DNA from: a virus
Virus record (IMG/VR): IMGVR_UViG_3300032236_001802
Location: 1 to 64,000 of that record
Strand: one strand, 5' to 3'
Length of the DNA: 64,000 nucleotides
How positions within the stretch are numbered: the first letter of the stretch is position 1; every line of letters begins with the position of its first letter. This document shows positions 4,098 through 34,867 of the stretch, piece by piece. Under the pieces are notes generated by a model, which did no database searches, was not told the DNA's origin, and saw only the letters and a list, made by a program, of their open reading frames with translations. Made by a program: the position numbers and the translations under genes.

Positions 4098-6788
4098 TTA
4101 ATTTGTTGTAGAGCTACCTGAACCGAATCCGAACCATGCTGCATTTTCTGGAGTAATCGAGGCGTAAATTATGGCCTCGGCTTCGTCGGGGCTATAACCC
4201 AATCGCTCCTTAATACTATCTTTTGAGTCTACGGCAATTCTCCATGAGGATAGGTGCCAGCGCATCGCCAATAGTCCTGATCTCATTCGGGTATTGTTCG
4301 GCAGTGCCACCCTAGAACCACTGTCGGGGTCCAACATTTCCCGAAACTTCCAAGCCCACTCCGCCCGTTTGTTGGAAAAACCCATCTTACCCGACTTATC
4401 GCGGGCATCGGAGCTTTCGGCTCCACTCAAGGGTTCACACTGCAAGCCCATTTGATGCATTGTGTCTACCGGGCTGCTACCAATCCCGATTACATCAATT
4501 CCACACCACGGATCCCCCTTCATATGCTCAATTAAAAATTGAACAAACATAGGCCCAGACCGAACCTCCGCCCCCGGCTTGGTGTGCAGGTTAAACCATT
4601 GGTCCCACCGCTCTGCGACGCTGGAATTGTCCGCCCCGCCCCGCGATGGATCGCCGCCGATGCCCTCTTGCCGAGTGTTGGGCGGTGGGTTTTCCGTCCA
4701 GCGGGCGATCGCAGCATCGACCCATTTTGTAGGGAAGATTTGCCAGGAATCATCATCGCTGCCCGCAGAAAAGTCACCGAACAGTAGTTGCGATCTGAGG
4801 GGTTCCGGTAGGGATTGCAGAATGGCTTTATAACCGGTGCGAACGTAGTAGGGGTTATCGTCAACTAGTGCAGGGATAAAGGTTCGCGATCGCGGTGTGA
4901 GCAATTCACCGTCATGCTCCACAAGATCGGGACGGCGATCGCCGCGCCCGACCTCACGGGTTTTGCCATTCACTTCTACATACCAAACCAGTTCTCCCGG
5001 CTTGGCCGGGTTGGGATGCTGAGGGTCTAGCCATGGCCCCCAGTAGGTTCGCACCCACTGCCCCTGATAGCTGGCGGGAGGGTTGCCCGTGCAAACAATC
5101 CGTACCCGCTGCCCGACGACTTCTGTACGGTTCCAGCCCGCTAGGGTGCGATACTGCGATTCACTAAAGTGGCAGATTTCATCGAAGGCCCGTAAATCGT
5201 GGGCACGGCCCTGGTATTTAGAAACATCTTTCTCATGTTGCACGGCCCCCGCTTCAACCGTGCGCCCGTCCTTCAACCGCCAGATATGATCCTGCCCATT
5301 GAATCGGCCAATGGTCGGGGTAACCAACTCGCCCGCTTTTTCGATAATTTCCCGTAACTGTGGATACTCACGCCGAAAGATGATCGATCGCCTGTGAGCA
5401 GTAAAGGCCAATCCGATCAATAGATACGAGTTGTGAGTAACATTGTATCCATCCGTAATGTAAAGGCTATTGGGATTACTAACGGTGATGCAACGACAAT
5501 AGGTCGATCCCTTTTTCTCAATCCCAACAATCTGCTTACCCACCCAGATGCTAGGCTCATGCCCCTTTGCTGCTTCCACTTTGCGCGGCAAGCTAAACAA
5601 TCGCCAGCGGCCATTGCCTTCCACCGAAACAATGTAAGACATCCGCTTTTCGCCCTCATATCCGGGACTGTAGCAAACCCCCTGCTTCTTCCTGACTTTT
5701 GCCATAAAACCAAGCGATCGCACCAAGTTCGCGACATCATCGGCTAACTGCGATGATGTCGTGCAATAGGAAACCTCATTCCGTTGCTTGCTTGATGCGT
5801 ATCCATCCGTATCAAACAGCCCTTGGGCAAGATTCCACCTAAACTCTAAAGACTCCTTTAGGTAACCTTGGGGTAAAAACTTTTCATACGACATTTTACC
5901 CAGTAGTCCCGAATTCCTTGCCCACTGATCTAACCACTGATCTTTAAGCTTTACATCAAAATGTCCATCTTTTGGATATGAAGCCCACTTTTCACATAAA
6001 GATGTGCATCTTTCAAGAATCCATTCATCCGCAGTGGTTAGCGTAAATCCACTTGAAAATCTGCGAGATGAAATGTGGCCATCGCCTATCAGAGCACCAT
6101 ACACGTAAGCACGGGCGGCATTGCCATGATGCAGATTGGTGTAGTTAAGTGGCGCTGCAATTGGAACAATCAACCGTATCCCGGAATTGACAGCCTCATA
6201 CATCCACTGGGTATCTCGCACCATCGCCCGCGTAATGTAATTCACATTCCAGTCGGCTGGAGACGATACCTCTAAAACCTCTCGGCGTCCATTACTGGTC
6301 TTTGCCCTTGTGTTCTTTCGAGCCTTCCAGAATCCCCACAAATGATCGCTACTGCATTCAACGCTAGTCCCGTCCTCAAACTTCACTAAATAGGTATCTA
6401 GCCGCCCACGTTCATGGATCTGAAGAATGGTCTGAATCTCCCCATCGGGATTCATTATGCGATCTCCGATCTTCAGCTCTGAAAATGACTTCCAGACGCC
6501 ATTCCACATCAAAACCTGAGAATCCATCAACCTAACCTCTTCAGGGATTAGATCGATTATATCGTCCAGATTATCCCCCGTAAATTGGCTCAGGTTCTCG
6601 AATGCCCATCCTAATGCATAGCATGCCTGAGCTTTTCCGCCGCCAGCGCCGCCTCCGAAGAAAAGTTCATCAGCCTGACTTTCAAAGGCCCGCTCCTGCG
6701 GACTGTTCGGAATCACTTTCCACGGAAAAGGGACAACGGCAGACCGCGCCCGCTTCTTTTCGGCGGCGATCGCTCCAATTCGGCGCAT
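4098..6788 (-). CDS. terL: Terminase large subunit, interrupted by an intein
   Basis: The 896-residue precursor contains a host protein of about 495 residues once a 401-residue intein is removed. The terminase pumps DNA into the prohead and cuts it. Exteins join to form the Walker A loop GGGAGGGK-S, followed by SIIFRREYPQLR, which is typical of this family. Walker B is LRAFDEICHF, a coupling-type segment is VCTGNPP, and the RNase H-like nuclease shows the acids of GGDPSRGG, GIDVIG and SPDEAEA. All key residues appear intact. A GAGG lies 6 bases before the ATG. The partner small subunit is ~8 kb away, which is unusual. Confidence 0.92.
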   Translation of the reverse strand: MRRIGAIAAEKKRARSAVVPFPWKVIPNSPQERAFESQADELFFGGGAGGGKAQACYALGWAFENLSQFTGDNLDDIIDLIPEEVRLMDSQVLMWNGVWKSFSELKIGDRIMNPDGEIQTILQIHERGRLDTYLVKFEDGTSVECSSDHLWGFWKARKNTRAKTSNGRREVLEVSSPADWNVNYITRAMVRDTQWMYEAVNSGIRLIVPIAAPLNYTNLHHGNAARAYVYGALIGDGHISSRRFSSGFTLTTADEWILERCTSLCEKWASYPKDGHFDVKLKDQWLDQWARNSGLLGKMSYEKFLPQGYLKESLEFRWNLAQGLFDTDGYASSKQRNEVSYCTTSSQLADDVANLVRSLGFMAKVRKKQGVCYSPGYEGEKRMSYIVSVEGNGRWRLFSLPRKVEAAKGHEPSIWVGKQIVGIEKKGSTYCRCITVSNPNSLYITDGYNVTHNSYLLIGLAFTAHRRSIIFRREYPQLREIIEKAGELVTPTIGRFNGQDHIWRLKDGRTVEAGAVQHEKDVSKYQGRAHDLRAFDEICHFSESQYRTLAGWNRTEVVGQRVRIVCTGNPPASYQGQWVRTYWGPWLDPQHPNPAKPGELVWYVEVNGKTREVGRGDRRPDLVEHDGELLTPRSRTFIPALVDDNPYYVRTGYKAILQSLPEPLRSQLLFGDFSAGSDDDSWQIFPTKWVDAAIARWTENPPPNTRQEGIGGDPSRGGADNSSVAERWDQWFNLHTKPGAEVRSGPMFVQFLIEHMKGDPWCGIDVIGIGSSPVDTMHQMGLQCEPLSGAESSDARDKSGKMGFSNKRAEWAWKFREMLDPDSGSRVALPNNTRMRSGLLAMRWHLSSWRIAVDSKDSIKERLGYSPDEAEAIIYASITPENAAWFGFGSGSSTTN
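5430..6632 (-). other. LAGLIDADG intein inserted in the terminase P-loop
   Basis: An in-frame 401-residue insert (precursor residues 53-453) between GGGAGGGK and SYLLIG. Splicing blocks are visible: a block A-like DSQVLMWNGVWKSF with ELKIGD, block B ECSSDHLW, block F-like YCRCITVSNPNSLYITDG, and block G YNVTHN followed by Ser. Between them lies a homing endonuclease with two LAGLIDADG motifs, GALIGDGHI near residue 231 and GLFDTDG near 323. The first intein residue would be Ala, which resembles class 2-like inteins lacking Cys1. About 30 residues separate that junction from block A, which is longer than usual. Insertion at a catalytic loop is the classic site choice for inteins. Confidence 0.88.
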
Positions 6789-10236: not shown

Positions 10237-10269
10237 TAAAAAGGGGATTCGGTTGAATCCCCTTTTTTT
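10237..10269. terminator. Bidirectional terminator between convergent genes
   Basis: AAAAAGGGGATTC / GAATCCCCTTTTT with loop GGTT, a perfect stem with A-run and T-run on opposite sides, so it works for both the plus-strand gene and the minus-strand ParB-like gene that overlaps it. Confidence 0.93.
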
Positions 10270-11104
10270 ATGCCTCAATCCGATCAAGATACTGAGACGC
10301 GATCGCTTCAAAAAACTGCCCTAGGGCAATCTGCTCATCACCCGATAGGGCAGCCTCCCGTGCTCCAAAGGCATTTTTAGCCTCTGTGATGATCTGCAAC
10401 CCTAGGGGGGAAAGCTTAAACGTGACCGTTTCAAACACATCATCCTGGGCGACGCTATCGCCCCCAGAACCGCTGTTTTCATAGTTGGGGTTAAACTGGT
10501 CCCAGTTGGCTTCCGCAAGGGCTAAAAGCTCTTGCAGCTCTTGATCCTCATAAGGTAAAGCCAGGGCTGTTTCCTCTCCCATGTCAGCGTAAATATCAGC
10601 CAGCAATTGAGCTAATTCAATCTTATCGGGATCTCCATGGGTTTCATTGATAACGATCGTTAGCTTTTTAGCCTCTGCATCAGTTAGTCCGTGGATCACA
10701 TTAACAAAAACGGTCTTCCCGTCCATTTCGAGCCATCGGTGATAGCCATCAATGATCTGATATTTGCCTTCTTGGTCTGGATGGGGCCGAACTACAATCT
10801 CTTCGATCTGTCCAACCCAGCTAAGCGATTCACCAATCGCCGCCTGTTCCCTGGGTCTAGTTTTTTGAGGATTCCATTCGTTAGGTATTAGGTCCGCCGA
10901 TGACACGGCAACCGCCCGCTGTATTGCATAGCGCTGATTAAGAATGACAGCGCTATCAATGCCTGGATAGGCGTGCCAAACCTCTTTACCTTGCCCTGCA
11001 CTATCACCTTCTTCGTTGATCTGTTGTTCCCCCTGAGATTCCACAGGGGGAACAACAACTTCGTTTGCCGAAACGGTTGTTGAACCAGTTTTTCTTTTAG
11101 TCAT
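10268..11104 (-). CDS. ParB/Srx-fold domain protein
   Basis: 278 residues. An N-terminal low-complexity region is followed by LIPNEWNPQKTRPREQAAIG, IVVRPHPDQEGKYQIIDGYHRWLE and VIHGLTDAEAKKLTIVINETHG, the characteristic ParB-like N-terminal fold with an [IV][IV]DGxHRW box that binds CTP or ATP in relatives. The C-terminus (helical, acidic) lacks the usual centromere-binding helix-turn-helix. In phages such proteins occur with DNA-modification enzymes; here it is the last gene of the deazaguanine operon, its start overlapping the dpdA-like gene by 8 bases. It could work with DNA modification, or as a nuclease. Which one is unknown. Confidence 0.7.
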   Translation of the reverse strand: MTKRKTGSTTVSANEVVVPPVESQGEQQINEEGDSAGQGKEVWHAYPGIDSAVILNQRYAIQRAVAVSSADLIPNEWNPQKTRPREQAAIGESLSWVGQIEEIVVRPHPDQEGKYQIIDGYHRWLEMDGKTVFVNVIHGLTDAEAKKLTIVINETHGDPDKIELAQLLADIYADMGEETALALPYEDQELQELLALAEANWDQFNPNYENSGSGGDSVAQDDVFETVTFKLSPLGLQIITEAKNAFGAREAALSGDEQIALGQFFEAIASQYLDRIEA

Positions 11105-12062
11105 CCCAAGTTATTCCCCTTGATTTCCATAGGTTAGTTGAATCAATTTGCATCTTTTGAAACTTTTTAACTTCACTTCTTAAATTGTGGATGTTTGCCG
11201 CTAAAGCCCCATCTGATTCTTTATAGCGGGGTAAGTGCTTGATGCCAGAAGCGGTTCCACCGCCAAACCTTAAGCATGAAGTCCACGACGATGAGTCGCA
11301 GGAATAAAGCGGGTAACGTTGCAAAACCCACTCGGAGGTTATTCCTAATAGGTGAACCTTTCTAAGTTTTTTCGTTTTTTTGAAATAAGCCATTACCCGC
11401 GAGAAGCACGGATCTAGCCAAGCCTCTAGCTTTTTCCGCTGGCGGGTATGAGGAACCAGCCCACCCAGGGCGATGTAATCGTATCCTTCTAGCGCCCTGT
11501 CCAGATGGGATAGATCGACGCCATGAGTAACGATCGGCATGGGATTCATACCAAGCTTTTCCAGAAGTTTTTGGTTTTTCCAGGTTGCATCCTGATCACC
11601 AATCACATCAAGGTTCATAAACAGAAGTGATTTAAGATGCGATCGCCACTTTGCATCAAACTGGATTGCCCATTGTGCATACTCTTGGGGGTGAACAATT
11701 CGATTACTTGCAAACGCCGAGAATGCTCCCGAATCGATTATCACGCGGGGCAAAACCCCTTCCCCTAAGGAGTTTTCGGCGATCTGCCGCTGGATAACCT
11801 TTTCTTTGTTTTTAACCTCTAACGGGTCAGCGTAGGTAGTTAAATGGTTTTCAATTGGCCCCATGCTGGCATACTGAATCTCTTTCTTTTGGGAAGGGTG
11901 ACCCGCTAGGTAGATTTGAACCATTTTTTTCCATGTGTTTTCATAGCTAACTAGCGGACCATCGGCATAAGCATAAGAACAAAGGTGGGATTGATACTGT
12001 TCTTGGGCAAGTAAATCGTATTGCCCGCGATCGCTACCTGCATCACAGAGGTGAATGTGCAT
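11097..12062 (-). CDS. dpdA: DpdA-like DNA 7-deazaguanine transglycosylase
   Basis: 321 residues and a TGT-like barrel outline: VIIDSGAFSAFASN (strand-Asp motif), LFMNLDVIGDQ, MPIVTHGVD, YDYIALGGLVPH, KVHLLGIT and YSCDSSSWTS. The Asp-rich strands and D(S)SSW segment match phage tRNA-guanine-transglycosylase relatives (DpdA), which swap guanine in DNA for a 7-deazaguanine. It overlaps queC by 20 bases and follows folE, queD and queE in one operon, which strongly supports the role. The protein would take preQ0 made by the other enzymes. No zinc-ribbon or Cys cluster typical of tRNA-specific TGTs is seen. The name is inference from context plus motifs. Confidence 0.8.
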   Translation of the reverse strand: MHIHLCDAGSDRGQYDLLAQEQYQSHLCSYAYADGPLVSYENTWKKMVQIYLAGHPSQKKEIQYASMGPIENHLTTYADPLEVKNKEKVIQRQIAENSLGEGVLPRVIIDSGAFSAFASNRIVHPQEYAQWAIQFDAKWRSHLKSLLFMNLDVIGDQDATWKNQKLLEKLGMNPMPIVTHGVDLSHLDRALEGYDYIALGGLVPHTRQRKKLEAWLDPCFSRVMAYFKKTKKLRKVHLLGITSEWVLQRYPLYSCDSSSWTSCLRFGGGTASGIKHLPRYKESDGALAANIHNLRSEVKKFQKMQIDSTNLWKSRGITWDD

Positions 12063-12762
12063 TTTGCTCTCTAAATTGCCAGATGGGATCGATCATGTTG
12101 TTCTCCTGAAACCCGCGATCGCGCAGTATGCAGGCATGGCACTTACCACACCCACCCTTAATGCCAGCGTAGCAAGTATGGGTTTCAGCGAACACCTGGT
12201 TAAAATCAAAGCTACCCATAGTCTCTACAGCCAGCTTGATACTCTCTGCCTTACTCAAATCCATCAAAGGCGTTCTGATCTCAAAGTGATCCGGGTTGCC
12301 CGCTATCGCCTCTCCCATAGCGGCTGCCGCTGCGTCAACAAAGGTCTGCCTACAATCCCAGTACCCAGCAAAATCGGCTTGACACAGCCCCGTGTAGATA
12401 GTGGTAATCCCTAAAGCCGCCGCCCGGTTTGCTGCGATCGTCAAAAAGAGTAGGTTTCTGGCGGGTACAAAGGTCGGTTCTACACCTGTTGGGAGTTCAT
12501 CAGGACCGCCATACTCCCCTAGGGGGGCGTTGCTGACCAGGGGGGAAGTACTTTGCAGTATGGGGCCAATATCGATAACCTCAAACCCATCTAGGCTTAA
12601 AGCGGTGGCCACCGCCCGCGCCGATTCCAATTCAATAGCGTGGCGCTGACCATAGTTAAAGGAAATCGCGTGAACCTCTTCAAACTCTTGCACGGCGATC
12701 GCGGCACAGGTTGTTGAATCTTGCCCACCGCTCAGAATAACCAGGCATTTACTTTTTGACAT
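12043..12762 (-). CDS. queC: 7-cyano-7-deazaguanine synthase
   Basis: 239 residues, close to the usual ~230. The PP-loop SGGQDSTT at 11-18 binds ATP, FNYGQRH follows, and VEPTFVPARN is the next conserved block. The C-terminus holds the zinc site THTCYAG...GGCGKCHACILR. It converts 7-carboxy-7-deazaguanine with ammonia and ATP to preQ0. The start at ATG 12762 follows folE's stop within 2 bases. All catalytic features are intact. Confidence 0.95.
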   Translation of the reverse strand: MSKSKCLVILSGGQDSTTCAAIAVQEFEEVHAISFNYGQRHAIELESARAVATALSLDGFEVIDIGPILQSTSPLVSNAPLGEYGGPDELPTGVEPTFVPARNLLFLTIAANRAAALGITTIYTGLCQADFAGYWDCRQTFVDAAAAAMGEAIAGNPDHFEIRTPLMDLSKAESIKLAVETMGSFDFNQVFAETHTCYAGIKGGCGKCHACILRDRGFQENNMIDPIWQFREQNAHSPL

Positions 12763-12763
12763 T

Positions 12764-13423
12764 TCAAACCCCTATTAGGTTCATAGCTTGCATCGTAACA
12801 GACATATCATTTTGAAAGATTCCAGTTGTAGCGCGGGTCACCGTTACGGCTCCAGCTTTGAGAACACCACGGTTCGACATACAAGAATGCTGGGCACTCA
12901 GGATAACGATGACGCCCTGTGGACTCAGGGCGTCATCTAGAACCTGGCAAAATTGCGTTGTTAGGCGCTCTTGTAATTGCGGTCTTTTAGCCAAAATGTC
13001 TAGCGACCGAGGCACCTTAGATAATCCGGCAACTTTACCGTTTGGAATATAACCAACATTTGCAACACCATAAAACGGCAGTAAATGATGCTCACATAAA
13101 CTGTTAAAGGGGATTGATTTGATAATAACCAGGTCGCTGTGAGCGCAAGGGAAAGTTTTCTTTAGCGCCTCCGCTGGGTTTTGGTGCAAACCGCTTGCAG
13201 CTTCCACCCAGTACCGGAACACGCGATCGGGGGTTTCGTCCATTCCTTCGGATAATGGTCCAAATACGATCGCCATTGCTTCACGAAGCAGGGTGATCGT
13301 ATGGTTGTCCGTTATCGGTTTGGATGGGGGAATAGAAGCAAGATGAAGTGCAGGTTTCATCAATTCGGACGGCGATGAGTCCGGGTAGTACTGGGATGAG
13401 TTGGTCATAAATCCATTTTGCAA
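12764..13423 (-). CDS. folE: GTP cyclohydrolase I (FolE)
   Basis: 219 residues. It makes dihydroneopterin triphosphate from GTP, the first step toward preQ0. Zinc and active-site residues are present: SLCEHHLLPFYG, GKVAGLSKVPR, LTTQFCQVL and AQHSCMSNRGV, the last aligning with EAEHxCMxxRGV of the family. The upstream end overlaps queD by up to 142 bases. The true start may be later, for example Met at 13360, because no strong ribosome-binding site precedes the first ATG and family homology begins near EAMAIVFGPLSEGMDETPDR. Confidence 0.93.
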   Translation of the reverse strand: MQNGFMTNSSQYYPDSSPSELMKPALHLASIPPSKPITDNHTITLLREAMAIVFGPLSEGMDETPDRVFRYWVEAASGLHQNPAEALKKTFPCAHSDLVIIKSIPFNSLCEHHLLPFYGVANVGYIPNGKVAGLSKVPRSLDILAKRPQLQERLTTQFCQVLDDALSPQGVIVILSAQHSCMSNRGVLKAGAVTVTRATTGIFQNDMSVTMQAMNLIGV

Positions 13424-13709
13424 CTAGTTCAGAAGTTGGACATTCAATTTTAAGCGTTTCATTTAGATGCCAGTGATCAAGATAGTCCCGAACCAAAGGG
13501 GCGATCGCCGCCTTGATATCAGCGTAATCTACAACCATGCCCCTTTTGGGACCATCTTCAAAAAGTTGGTTGCCCTGAACAAACACAAAACCCACCCAGG
13601 AATGACCGTGCAATCGCTGGCACTTCCCATCGTGATCAGATAGTTGATGGGAAGCTTCAAAGGTAAATTTTTTGGACAAAACCCATCCGCCAATAGGCAA
13701 GCACTGCAT
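13281..13709 (-). CDS. queD: 6-carboxy-tetrahydropterin synthase (QueD)
   Basis: 142 residues, a little longer than typical. The zinc site is FEASHQL plus RLHGHSW, and Cys in GKCQRLHGH is the catalytic one. DYLDHWHLNE and CPTSELVAKWIY follow, with IDETCTSSC near the end corresponding to the substrate-binding Glu. It turns dihydroneopterin triphosphate into 6-carboxy-5,6,7,8-tetrahydropterin. Its ATG is separated from queE by 1 base overlap. The N-terminal ~10 residues may be extra to the core fold. Confidence 0.93.
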   Translation of the reverse strand: MQCLPIGGWVLSKKFTFEASHQLSDHDGKCQRLHGHSWVGFVFVQGNQLFEDGPKRGMVVDYADIKAAIAPLVRDYLDHWHLNETLKIECPTSELVAKWIYDQLIPVLPGLIAVRIDETCTSSCFYSPIQTDNGQPYDHPAS

Positions 13710-14383
13710 TATTTAACTCCTATCAATTTGTGGGTTTGCAGAGAAAGTCTAGCTTTGGGCCAAACCTTAAGCGCTTCTAATGTTACGTCAAAAGACCCCG
13801 ACTGATACGGAGAAACGTCAAACGTGTCAGTCCAAGCGGGCTGAAAAAATACAGGTATTCCTGAATCAAATAACCACTTCAACACACCCCCCCTAAATGT
13901 CTTTTCATCCCTTGCATAGAATAGAATGTCCTCTTCTTTTTCGATAACGAACTTGACCTCATCAGCCCTGAGCCAAAGCTGAACGGGATAACTTTTGTTC
14001 ATGTGCTCTTTAGGTGAAAGCGTGACCCACACTTGACCGGGAATCGAACTTTTAGATAAAAAACCTCCAGACGTTTCGATGTGAACAGCTTTACCCGCTT
14101 CAATTAACCCCTCGCATAGTGCGGACAAGTTTCTATGAATAAACGGTTCGCCACCAGAAATAACAACGGTTTCAGCGTTGGATAATTCGCCGATGAGTTC
14201 TGATAAAGTCATAGATTTTCGAGGGGTTGTCGCGCCGCCATCGGCGTAACCCGTATCGCACCAAGAACAGCCCACTGGGCACCCAGACAACCGAATAAAA
14301 TCAACATATCTTCCAGCGTGCAACCCTTCTCCCTGGACGGTTTGCTGAAAGGTTTCGTGAATCTGAAAAACTTGCTCCACCAT
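13709..14383 (-). CDS. queE: 7-carboxy-7-deazaguanine synthase (radical SAM QueE)
   Basis: 224 residues. FQQTVQGEGLHAGR is the substrate-binding front end. The [4Fe-4S]-binding CPVGCSWCDTG at ~35-45 fits the CxxxCxxC radical SAM motif, and VVISGGEPF is the SAM-binding GGE-type motif. It makes the deazapurine ring from carboxytetrahydropterin. A GAGGATTT sequence just before ATG gives good initiation. The gene is first of the four que genes as transcribed. Confidence 0.95.
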   Translation of the reverse strand: MVEQVFQIHETFQQTVQGEGLHAGRYVDFIRLSGCPVGCSWCDTGYADGGATTPRKSMTLSELIGELSNAETVVISGGEPFIHRNLSALCEGLIEAGKAVHIETSGGFLSKSSIPGQVWVTLSPKEHMNKSYPVQLWLRADEVKFVIEKEEDILFYARDEKTFRGGVLKWLFDSGIPVFFQPAWTDTFDVSPYQSGSFDVTLEALKVWPKARLSLQTHKLIGVK

Positions 14384-14389
14384 AAATCC

Positions 14390-14629
14390 TCAAAATAAGT
14401 TTAACTGCTGCCCTTCGGTGCAACCGACGCAGAAGCTGTCCACCACACCGCGATCGCAGCTGATCGCCAACCGTTCACGCCCACTGCAATGGGGGTACAC
14501 CCAATCGCGATCGCTTGCCCATGACCCGCCCACTGAGGACAGGATCCCTAAGTTATGCCCAGGGTAAAGGCTCCGGGCTTTCGCCATTGCAGTATTAATC
14601 GAGCTTACGCGATCGGGTTTGGTTTTCAT
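14390..14629 (-). CDS. Small Cys-rich protein in deazaguanine operon
   Basis: 79 residues with four cysteines arranged as YPHCSGRERLAISC and SFCVGCTEG, suggesting a metal-binding mini-domain. It starts in a TAATG overlap with the terminase-small-like gene and ends 6 bases before queE. Nothing else is recognised. Its position suggests a role in the deazaguanine operon, perhaps a small adaptor, but this is inference. Confidence 0.5.
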   Translation of the reverse strand: MKTKPDRVSSINTAMAKARSLYPGHNLGILSSVGGSWASDRDWVYPHCSGRERLAISCDRGVVDSFCVGCTEGQQLNLF

Positions 14630-15147
14630 TAGTTCAGCCCTGCTGACAGGGCTTTGTCGGTACTATCGCTGATCTGCACAATGGCATCCAGCACTTGATC
14701 GAAAACTTCTTTAGGCAGAGACGCTTCAAGGGCGTCAACAACCTGCCGAAGCTCTGTCTGAATCCCCTGCTCAATCTGCACTTGTACGGGTGCATCCAGC
14801 CCCAGCAATTTGCGCCGAGATTCATTGATTTTGATCGCAGTGGCGATCGCCTTCAGATTACCTTTTCTCACCTCTGAGGCAATCTTGAGCAGGTAGTAGT
14901 CCAGCCGTTCTAGTTCAAGGGCAATCAGTTCCTCTGCCGAGTTTTTTCGGGTGCTGGTTGCCTCATTCAGTGCAGCGCAAACATCCTTGTAGGCGGTGGA
15001 CTTACTGTAGGCCGGTTGACTAAATTTCACCGCGATCGCCGCCGCGATCGATTCAAACGTAGCTCCCTCGCGCCGCATGTTGAGCGCGGCCAGTCTGCGA
15101 TCCGCCACTTTGATTCGACCTGGGGACGTTTTTGATATGGATGCCAT
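14629..15147 (-). CDS. terS: Terminase small subunit-like DNA-binding protein
   Basis: 172 residues from Met at 15147, the start chosen because it follows a helix-lacking segment; a TTG at 15189 would add 14 residues. The N-terminus carries ADRRLAALNMRREGATFESIA, then STAYKDVCAALNE, the shape of a helix-turn-helix that recognises pac/cos DNA. The middle is a long helix and the C-terminal third has RRKLLGLDAPVQVQIEQG, a segment common in small terminases. TerS would hand DNA to the terminase at 4098-6788. It leads the deazaguanine operon, far from its partner. Confidence 0.6.
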   Translation of the reverse strand: MASISKTSPGRIKVADRRLAALNMRREGATFESIAAAIAVKFSQPAYSKSTAYKDVCAALNEATSTRKNSAEELIALELERLDYYLLKIASEVRKGNLKAIATAIKINESRRKLLGLDAPVQVQIEQGIQTELRQVVDALEASLPKEVFDQVLDAIVQISDSTDKALSAGLN

Positions 15148-15193
15148 ACTGCAAAACAGTGTCAGAGCTTTAAGTTTCCTGTAGTTCAATTTG

Positions 15194-33304: not shown

Positions 33305-34867
33305 TTAGGTGTATGGATTGATAGCGGGTGGGCGAATCACGCCCCTTTTTGAAAACACTCTGATGAAATCATCCAGCCCAGCGCCGAACACATCCAGATA
33401 GTAGAAATGGACAGGAAAGGTCGCGGGTGAATCATTTCCGACGAAGGTAATCCGTCCGACAAACTCGCAGCGATAAAACGCTGACAGCTTTTGGGACCAA
33501 ACAGTGGATGTGTCACCCCTCGTTAGGGCAATGTGACGGTGATCAATTCCTACCGCTTTCATGAGTCGGTGTTCCTCCAAGATCTTTTCGATCCAGGGCA
33601 AATTCACTGAAAGCATTTTGGGATCACCGTGGCGATCGTAGATAGGTGTGCCGTCGCGAAATTCAGGAATTGAAAAGGGATGATTCGTGTAGGTAAACCA
33701 ACTTTTTGTTTCCAGCGGGTTAACCTTTTCCCCTAGGGACTCTGGATCCCATCTGCGATTCAACCCGTTATCTTCAGCGGTAAAGTGGTGCCGCGCCCGA
33801 ACGTTAGCGGCATGCCCCTTGGCGTTGCTGCATGGGTCCAAGTCGATCGTACCGAAAACATCGTAAACCAGTTGCATTACATCCTCTGGGCTGTAATGCT
33901 CACAGGTTTTGCTTGATGTGAAAACCTTTCTGGCGTGATCTACCCGGCCATCTTCTGGTTGTGGATCCAAATACTCGTTAACGTTCAGCTTAAACGTACC
34001 GGGCAACGGCTCAACTAAGCCAGGAACCTGATCATCACCGTCCTCATCGCCATCGGTTTGGAGATCTTGCACCCTACCAGATCTCCAACGCTCCCAGCGG
34101 GTTTCCCCCTCGCCGCCCGGTTGATCGTCCTGTCCTCTCTCTATCACAAGGGGAGCCGCAGCCACAGGGGCGGGGGTGGGTGTTTCTGCCCCGTTCAAGT
34201 CGTTACTGTTGAGAACAAAACGCTCGACGGGTTGAGGTTGCGATCGCTGCATGGTGTAGGTCGATTCCCCACGGGTCACCGTGATTTCCGTTCCCGGTGG
34301 GTCAACTTTGCCCTGTTCTGCCAGGGCAAACCAGTGGGCGCGGAACGTCTTGGGGTCCATCTGGGTGTGTTCTGCCAGTTGGCGGTAAGACAGACCCGCA
34401 GCATGAGGACTGGTTAAAGCCGCTTCCACGATGCATGGGATGTCGGCACGCGATCGCCGCAGCCCATGCCGGGTATTGCATTTTAGAGCTGCCCATTTTG
34501 CATCAGTGGCATCCCCGTGCTCTACATAGGTTAAAACGCCAACCGCTTCAAACGTTGCAGCGCGATCGCGTTGATCCTGGGTAGCTTCAGGCGTGTTAGC
34601 AAACTCGCAGAACCGCAGGAGAGATTCGAGTCGATGATTGCCGTCAAACAGGTAGTAATCCTCGCCATCCAGCATGGCTGAAAGGGGTGGGAATACGTCG
34701 CCCCGTTTGTAAGCCGTTAGGTATTCCTCTACGGTTGGCTCATCCAGACTCTTTCGTGCCTGAATTTGGTGCTTAATCAGTTGCGACAACGCAACCTCAA
34801 CAACAACACCCTGTGAATCTTGTATCTGGAGATTTCCCCGGATAGCTTCTGCAACTGGCATGTTCAT
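33305..34867 (-). CDS. ParB-like domain fused to phage N6-adenine (Dam-like) methyltransferase
   Basis: 520 residues. N-terminus (1-200): LSQLIKHQIQARKSLDEPTVEEY..., DYYLFDGNHRLESLLRF and RHGLRRSRADIPC, a ParB-like fold with DGNHR. A disordered linker (~215-300) precedes CEHYSPEDVMQLVYDVFGTI, DLDPCSNAKGH, RHHFTAEDNGL and VNLPWIEKILEEH of a phage N6-adenine methyltransferase (Dam-like). NLPW replaces the family's NPP[WY]; activity may be altered. Such fusions could tie site recognition to modification. It is downstream of dnaB. Confidence 0.75.
   Translation of the reverse strand: MNMPVAEAIRGNLQIQDSQGVVVEVALSQLIKHQIQARKSLDEPTVEEYLTAYKRGDVFPPLSAMLDGEDYYLFDGNHRLESLLRFCEFANTPEATQDQRDRAATFEAVGVLTYVEHGDATDAKWAALKCNTRHGLRRSRADIPCIVEAALTSPHAAGLSYRQLAEHTQMDPKTFRAHWFALAEQGKVDPPGTEITVTRGESTYTMQRSQPQPVERFVLNSNDLNGAETPTPAPVAAAPLVIERGQDDQPGGEGETRWERWRSGRVQDLQTDGDEDGDDQVPGLVEPLPGTFKLNVNEYLDPQPEDGRVDHARKVFTSSKTCEHYSPEDVMQLVYDVFGTIDLDPCSNAKGHAANVRARHHFTAEDNGLNRRWDPESLGEKVNPLETKSWFTYTNHPFSIPEFRDGTPIYDRHGDPKMLSVNLPWIEKILEEHRLMKAVGIDHRHIALTRGDTSTVWSQKLSAFYRCEFVGRITFVGNDSPATFPVHFYYLDVFGAGLDDFIRVFSKRGVIRPPAINPYT

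Follow-up and report, generated by a model that had tools for sequence, protein, structure and literature searches.

We analyzed a 64,000-nucleotide stretch of viral DNA (the window, bases 1-64000 of IMG/VR virus record IMGVR_UViG_3300032236_001802; the record spans 75,752 bp and may be a fragment or a genome, its completeness being unknown) and found an operon that combines four genes for 7-cyano-7-deazaguanine (preQ0) synthesis with genes for a DpdA-type transglycosylase and a ParB-like protein. This arrangement is probably a base-modification operon of a tailed cyanobacterial phage, in which preQ0 would be synthesized and then placed into DNA by DpdA together with a ParB-like partner. Systems of this kind are already known; the under-appreciated part is the proposed ParB-like partner. 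Families were assigned by Pfam, NCBIfam and PHROG profiles, as follows:

10268-15189, minus strand: the whole operon (folE, queD, queE, queC, the DpdA-type transglycosylase gene and the ParB-like gene).
13709-14383, minus strand: queE, 7-carboxy-7-deazaguanine synthase, radical SAM (TIGR04322 8e-29, below the curated cut-off; phrog_2076 6e-30).
13281-13709, minus strand: queD, 6-carboxytetrahydropterin synthase (PF01242 2e-31; TIGR03367 above cut-off).
12764-13423, minus strand: folE, guanosine triphosphate (GTP) cyclohydrolase I (PF01227 6e-58; NF006826 above cut-off), whose true start is uncertain.
12043-12762, minus strand: queC, preQ0 synthase, without a Gat domain (PF06508 2e-58; TIGR00364 above cut-off).
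11097-12062, minus strand: dpdA-like DNA guanine transglycosylase (phrog_887 1e-33; D110, D152, D256 and H237 invariant).
10268-11104, minus strand: ParB-fold protein, the proposed DNA-targeting partner of DpdA (phrog_723 7e-18; Box II GxxR, here DGYHR).

Eight minus-strand open reading frames (ORFs) run from 15189 down to 10268. Because neighboring genes overlap or sit within 6 nt of each other, they likely share one transcript. The queD and folE frames share up to 143 nt (13281-13423), an overlap that recurs in related loci (L009, L011-L013, L020 and L096).

The first-pass annotation had recognized folE, queD, queE and queC in one operon by their motifs, and both the family matches and the conserved motifs bear this out. 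In FolE (CEHHLLPF and HSC), QueD (CQRLHGH, fitting CxxxHGH) and QueE (GCPVGCSWCD, containing CxxxCxxC, and SGGEP, containing GGEP), the zinc-ligand and catalytic motifs can be read directly in the sequence. QueE matches radical SAM and the NCBIfam QueE models (8e-29), and its gene is kept in the relatives. The signature motifs defined for QueC (SGGxDS, YxQxHxxE, VPxRN and a zinc-region tyrosine; PMC13329287) appear as SGGQDS, YGQRHAIE and VPARN, with the tyrosine retained in a four-cysteine zinc motif that begins with CY; YWDC stands where the canonical sequence is YPDC. The operon thus holds all four synthesis genes that define group 2 of Hutinet 2019 (DpdA with FolE, QueD, QueE and QueC, and no amidotransferase).

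The transglycosylase (321 aa) is 27-28% identical to the DpdA proteins of CAjan, Me-ZS1 and others, with a tblastn match of 7e-22 to CAjan DpdA, and we classify it by homology as a divergent phage DpdA that forms its own subfamily. Its residues D110, D152, D256 and H237 are invariant in both phage DpdA alignments (A1 and A3). We take the three aspartates to sit at the catalytic aspartate positions of TGT-type enzymes. H237 aligns with residue 196 (H196) of a 9g-like DpdA, the histidine that DpdA2 of the phage nt-1 type lacks (PMC6884629); because it is kept, we ruled out a DpdA2 identity. The first-pass annotation's proposal of a DpdA-like enzyme is borne out by the phrog_887 match. Conceivably, the operon could instead raise host queuosine in tRNA, with the transglycosylase acting as a tRNA enzyme: the same precursors feed queuosine, and such a role was suggested for phages that have preQ0 genes but lack DpdA (PMC6884629). 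The protein, however, has no Pfam TGT match, groups with phage DpdA and retains the DpdA histidine, so that it does not match only tRNA-type TGT; QueF is absent from the record, and the operon contains neither QueA nor QueG. We regard the tRNA role as highly improbable.

The N-terminus of this DpdA contains a duplicated beta/alpha unit of about 46 aa (xIHLA...SYAY...W), present in two copies in the window and in three or four in relatives (L009-L019 and L096). Several loci also have free-standing copies, encoded by small ORFs upstream of dpdA. The last copy lies 62 residues from DSGAF, and the CAjan N-terminus lies 63 residues from it. As a guess, the repeat could be a partner- or DNA-binding extension. 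In five loci (L015, L021, L029, L035 and L093), the operon contains two dpdA genes in tandem, which perhaps have two sequence specificities.

Given this gene set, the phage DNA very probably carries a deazaguanine. FolE, QueD, QueE and QueC would, by family function, convert GTP to free preQ0, and DpdA would exchange guanines in phage DNA for preQ0 to yield dPreQ0, as in its homologs from CAjan and Rosebush. The same gene set in CAjan gives dPreQ0 at 32% of G, which is lost without dpdA, and in Rosebush dPreQ0 at 28% of G (Hutinet 2019, PMC6884629). In the 75.8 kb record we found no QueF (PF14489), no ArcS (PF17884), for both of which the controls were positive in the expected genomes, and no DpdC-like DUF6884 gene; QueC has no Gat domain by Pfam. 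Because these enzymes are absent and CAjan and Rosebush carry dPreQ0 with the same genes, we predict, with good though somewhat lower confidence, that the base is mainly dPreQ0. This agrees with the first-pass annotation, which had considered dPreQ0 the simplest outcome for want of QueF or Gat.

The phage or its host could still convert dPreQ0 further, for example to 2'-deoxy-7-amido-7-deazaguanosine (dADG). Within the clade, L015, L020 and L096 have a DUF6884 gene beside dpdA/parB (Pfam DUF6884 8.5e-41 in L096), and all three genes weakly match PADLOC DpdC models, with best E values between 1e-8 and 1e-4. Since DUF6884 is associated with dpdC (PMC11888242), these members may make dADG, which also occurs as a minor base in Rosebush and other phages (PMC6884629). 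Against conversion in our phage stand the missing enzymes and the finding that CAjan and Rosebush carry almost only dPreQ0 (PMC6884629), and we consider it improbable, even allowing for a possibly incomplete record. Separately, Fusobacterium phage phiFN37 (L127) combines dpdA, ParB and DUF6884 with a queuosine-precursor transporter and has no preQ0 synthesis genes nearby, a set that likely serves salvage and dADG formation.

The AlphaFold2 model of the ParB-like protein is confident at residues 61-150, and its best structural matches are CTP-bound ParB, Noc, KorB and PadC (E about 4e-7), followed by sulfiredoxin. A profile search likewise matches ParB and Noc structures. Both the fold and the Box II GxxR motif that mark ParB CTPases are present, with G120 and R123 invariant in the clade alignment (A2). 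We rejected the idea that it is a ParABS partition protein, as the record has no ParA (no PF13614 match). By the available models it is not a DpdB either: the DpdB model PDLC02812 finds no match in the record, the controls being likewise silent. For a direct comparison with DpdB, 386 cyanobacterial genomes yielded only two weak, stop-interrupted matches. Elsewhere in the window (33305-34867), a Dam-like methyltransferase bears an N-terminal ParB-like domain, another link between a ParB domain and DNA modification.

Scanning viral contigs with one DpdA sequence as the query returned nothing; with an alignment as the query, the scan recovered 13 close viral loci at 44-56% identity (L009-L021), along with more remote loci. 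QueE, QueD, FolE, QueC, DpdA and ParB recur in the close relatives, together with DUF6884 in three and a small ORF resembling the DpdA N-terminus in several. Of the 13 nearest viral loci, 12 have the ParB gene 3' of dpdA, as does L096; DUF6884 stands between the two genes in L020 and L096. In the exception, L009, the ParB gene precedes queE and heads the operon. The first-pass annotation had placed the ParB-like gene at the end of the operon, which is correct as to position but incomplete, because the gene is conserved as part of the module and adjoins dpdA in nearly all relatives.

We next searched 122 dpdA loci, drawn from viral contigs, phages and genomes, with purpose-built profiles of ParB and of beta-type clamps. 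ParB alone was found in 33 loci and a clamp alone in 72; one had both, and 16 had neither, some of them being cut at dpdA. PHROG searches upheld 10 of the 10 ParB calls tested and every clamp call tested except L121. They also revealed that Cellulophaga phage phi3:1 has, in addition to ParB, a clamp that the clamp profile had missed, bringing the loci with both to two. The clamp loci gave no ParB match across 0.90 Mb, and neither the window record nor any of eight ParB-group viral records contains a clamp. Six phages held out for a later test all fit this split: in Mufasa8, Boyle (Rosebush species), phiFN37 and Typha, ParB adjoins dpdA or is one small gene away, and PSTCR4 and V07 have a clamp. 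Actinophages (CRB2, Sour, Finch, Boyle and Typha, for example) carry the ParB gene upstream of dpdA; in the window, Mufasa8 and phi3:1 it lies downstream. That the pairing persists over great divergence while the gene order switches supports functional coupling of ParB and DpdA.

On balance, these observations suggest that the ParB-like protein acts with DpdA. It would be a dedicated DNA-binding partner that brings DpdA to DNA or holds it there, a role we infer from the conserved adjacency and the ParB fold, like that proposed for bacterial DpdB. Homology to CAjan and Rosebush suggests that the dPreQ0 so formed would protect phage DNA against host restriction; modification by the preQ0/DpdA gene set blocks restriction (PMC6884629). 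Alternatively, the ParB-like gene may be a mere neighbor that encodes an autorepressor, a nuclease or a partition protein, with DpdA working alone or with host factors. Phage 9g DpdA alone indeed gives some dPreQ0 in plasmid DNA in Escherichia coli (PMC6884629), and some dpd clusters can do without DpdB (PMC12839542). Moreover, a perfect 14-bp inverted repeat with an 8-nt loop (11022-11057) lies within the 5' end of the ParB-like gene and is a possible operator; we rejected it as a repeated ParB site, as the window holds no other copies above chance. Yet the gene stays beside dpdA, on either side, across very divergent phages, and no ParA accompanies it. The 9g result is no test of the ParB lineage, because 9g-like phages (L030) belong to the clamp lineage. 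We therefore find a mere neighbor unlikely, though worth serious attention, and favor a ParB-like partner of DpdA.

Several points weigh against our account. ParB homologs of actinophages, including Rosebush, read GNHT and lack the Box II arginine, and therefore a nucleoside triphosphate-gated mechanism cannot be general. A PADLOC scan of the ParB-like protein retrieved no DpdB model at E<=0.1. The AlphaFold model of DpdA is weak (predicted local distance difference test score 63) and matches generic TIM barrels only, without specifically recovering TGT. The modified base is predicted from the gene content, and the record may be incomplete, in which case a converting enzyme could have been missed. 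Lastly, a tree of 126 DpdA sequences requires only one change between ParB and clamp. Because one change suffices, the split is one inherited association per lineage, deep and conserved, and not repeated invention; contingency P values exaggerate it for the same reason.

A more general idea, which we put forward tentatively and hold to be rather doubtful, is that phage DNA transglycosylases generally need a DNA-encircling partner: a ParB-family protein in one deep DpdA lineage and the replicative sliding clamp in the other. If it is true, base exchange would be delivered along DNA by a clamp. Our results extend DNA-guanine replacement to a cyanophage clade with its own DpdA subfamily and suggest that much of the diversity of phage DpdA has a ParB-like partner. 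Rosebush gp1-gp2 is such a pair with measured dPreQ0, which puts the ParB/DpdB role within reach of one gene deletion. In mycobacteriophage CRB2, the ParB-like gene has been proposed to play a dpdB-like role (PMC6392294), and DpdB is described as a ParB-like ATPase assisting in the insertion of preQ0 (PMC12839542). A 2025 survey of ParB folds (PMC12704722) mentions neither transglycosylase, queuine nor DpdB, and Hutinet 2019 does not mention ParB. The ParB-DpdA link has thus been suggested before for one mycobacteriophage and for bacterial DpdA-DpdB; we found no systematic description in the literature.

The octamer HIP1 (GCGATCGC), which is characteristic of cyanobacteria, occurs 118 times in the window against 1.2 expected. 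The large terminase is closest to that of Aphanizomenon phage CL131 (52% identity over 98%), and the DnaB helicase is 51.5% identical to that of Planktothrix phage PaV-LD. In Chlorogloeopsis fritschii PCC 6912, one contig carries the same operon with an inserted DUF6884 gene. We assign the host to the cyanobacteria from these sequence features, because of the HIP1 excess, the nearest terminase and the operon in Chlorogloeopsis fritschii. DpdA of the window type occurs in only one of 386 cyanobacterial genomes, that of Chlorogloeopsis fritschii PCC 6912, and therefore behaves as a mobile-element gene; we found no integrase in the record.

The two remaining genes of the operon are:

14629-15189, minus strand: phrog_645 protein (2e-22; PHROG label 'RNase E'), terminase-small/helix-turn-helix (HTH)-like, the first operon gene.
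14390-14629, minus strand: a 79-aa ORF without a family, which the relatives lack.

We rejected both as parts of the module, as they are missing from relatives; the phrog_645 gene has no match in L009-L023 or L096. The first-pass annotation's statement that a terminase-small-like gene leads the operon is right about the position, but this phrog_645 gene is not conserved with the operon. Its family adjoins the terminase in phage Typha. The large terminase of the window (4098-6788) lies 8 kb from the phrog_645 gene; it comprises 896 aa and shares a long N-terminal extension with that of Aphanizomenon phage CL131.

Among known systems, the Rosebush/CRB2-type mycobacteriophage operon (ParB-DpdA-QueC-QueD-QueE-FolE) comes closest, with the same six families and a ParB gene that overlaps dpdA; gp1 of the Rosebush species is ParB-like (phrog_723 2.5e-65) despite its HTH annotation. 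It differs in having ParB upstream of dpdA and without the Box II arginine, and in its DpdA subfamily (phrog_7068). The Queuovirinae (CAjan and the 9g group) include CAjan, for which dPreQ0 has been shown, and Microcystis phage Me-ZS1 likewise infects a cyanobacterium. By contrast, in these phages dpdA is followed by a DNA polymerase III beta-type clamp and a DNA polymerase, with no ParB, and their DpdA is the 27-28% identical homolog described above. Bacterial dpd islands also pair a TGT-like DpdA with DpdB of the ParB superfamily (PMC12839542), and some relatives of the phage operon likewise carry a DpdC-like gene. The phage ParB, however, is unmatched by DpdB models, and the phage operon has preQ0 genes and no restriction genes. 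Finally, phage ParB-DNA methyltransferase fusions (phrog_498) and ParBc beside CmoX tie a related ParB domain to a DNA-modifying enzyme (PMC12783734, PMC12704722). In those systems ParB is joined by a methyl- or carboxymethyltransferase, whereas the partner in the window is a separately encoded transglycosylase.

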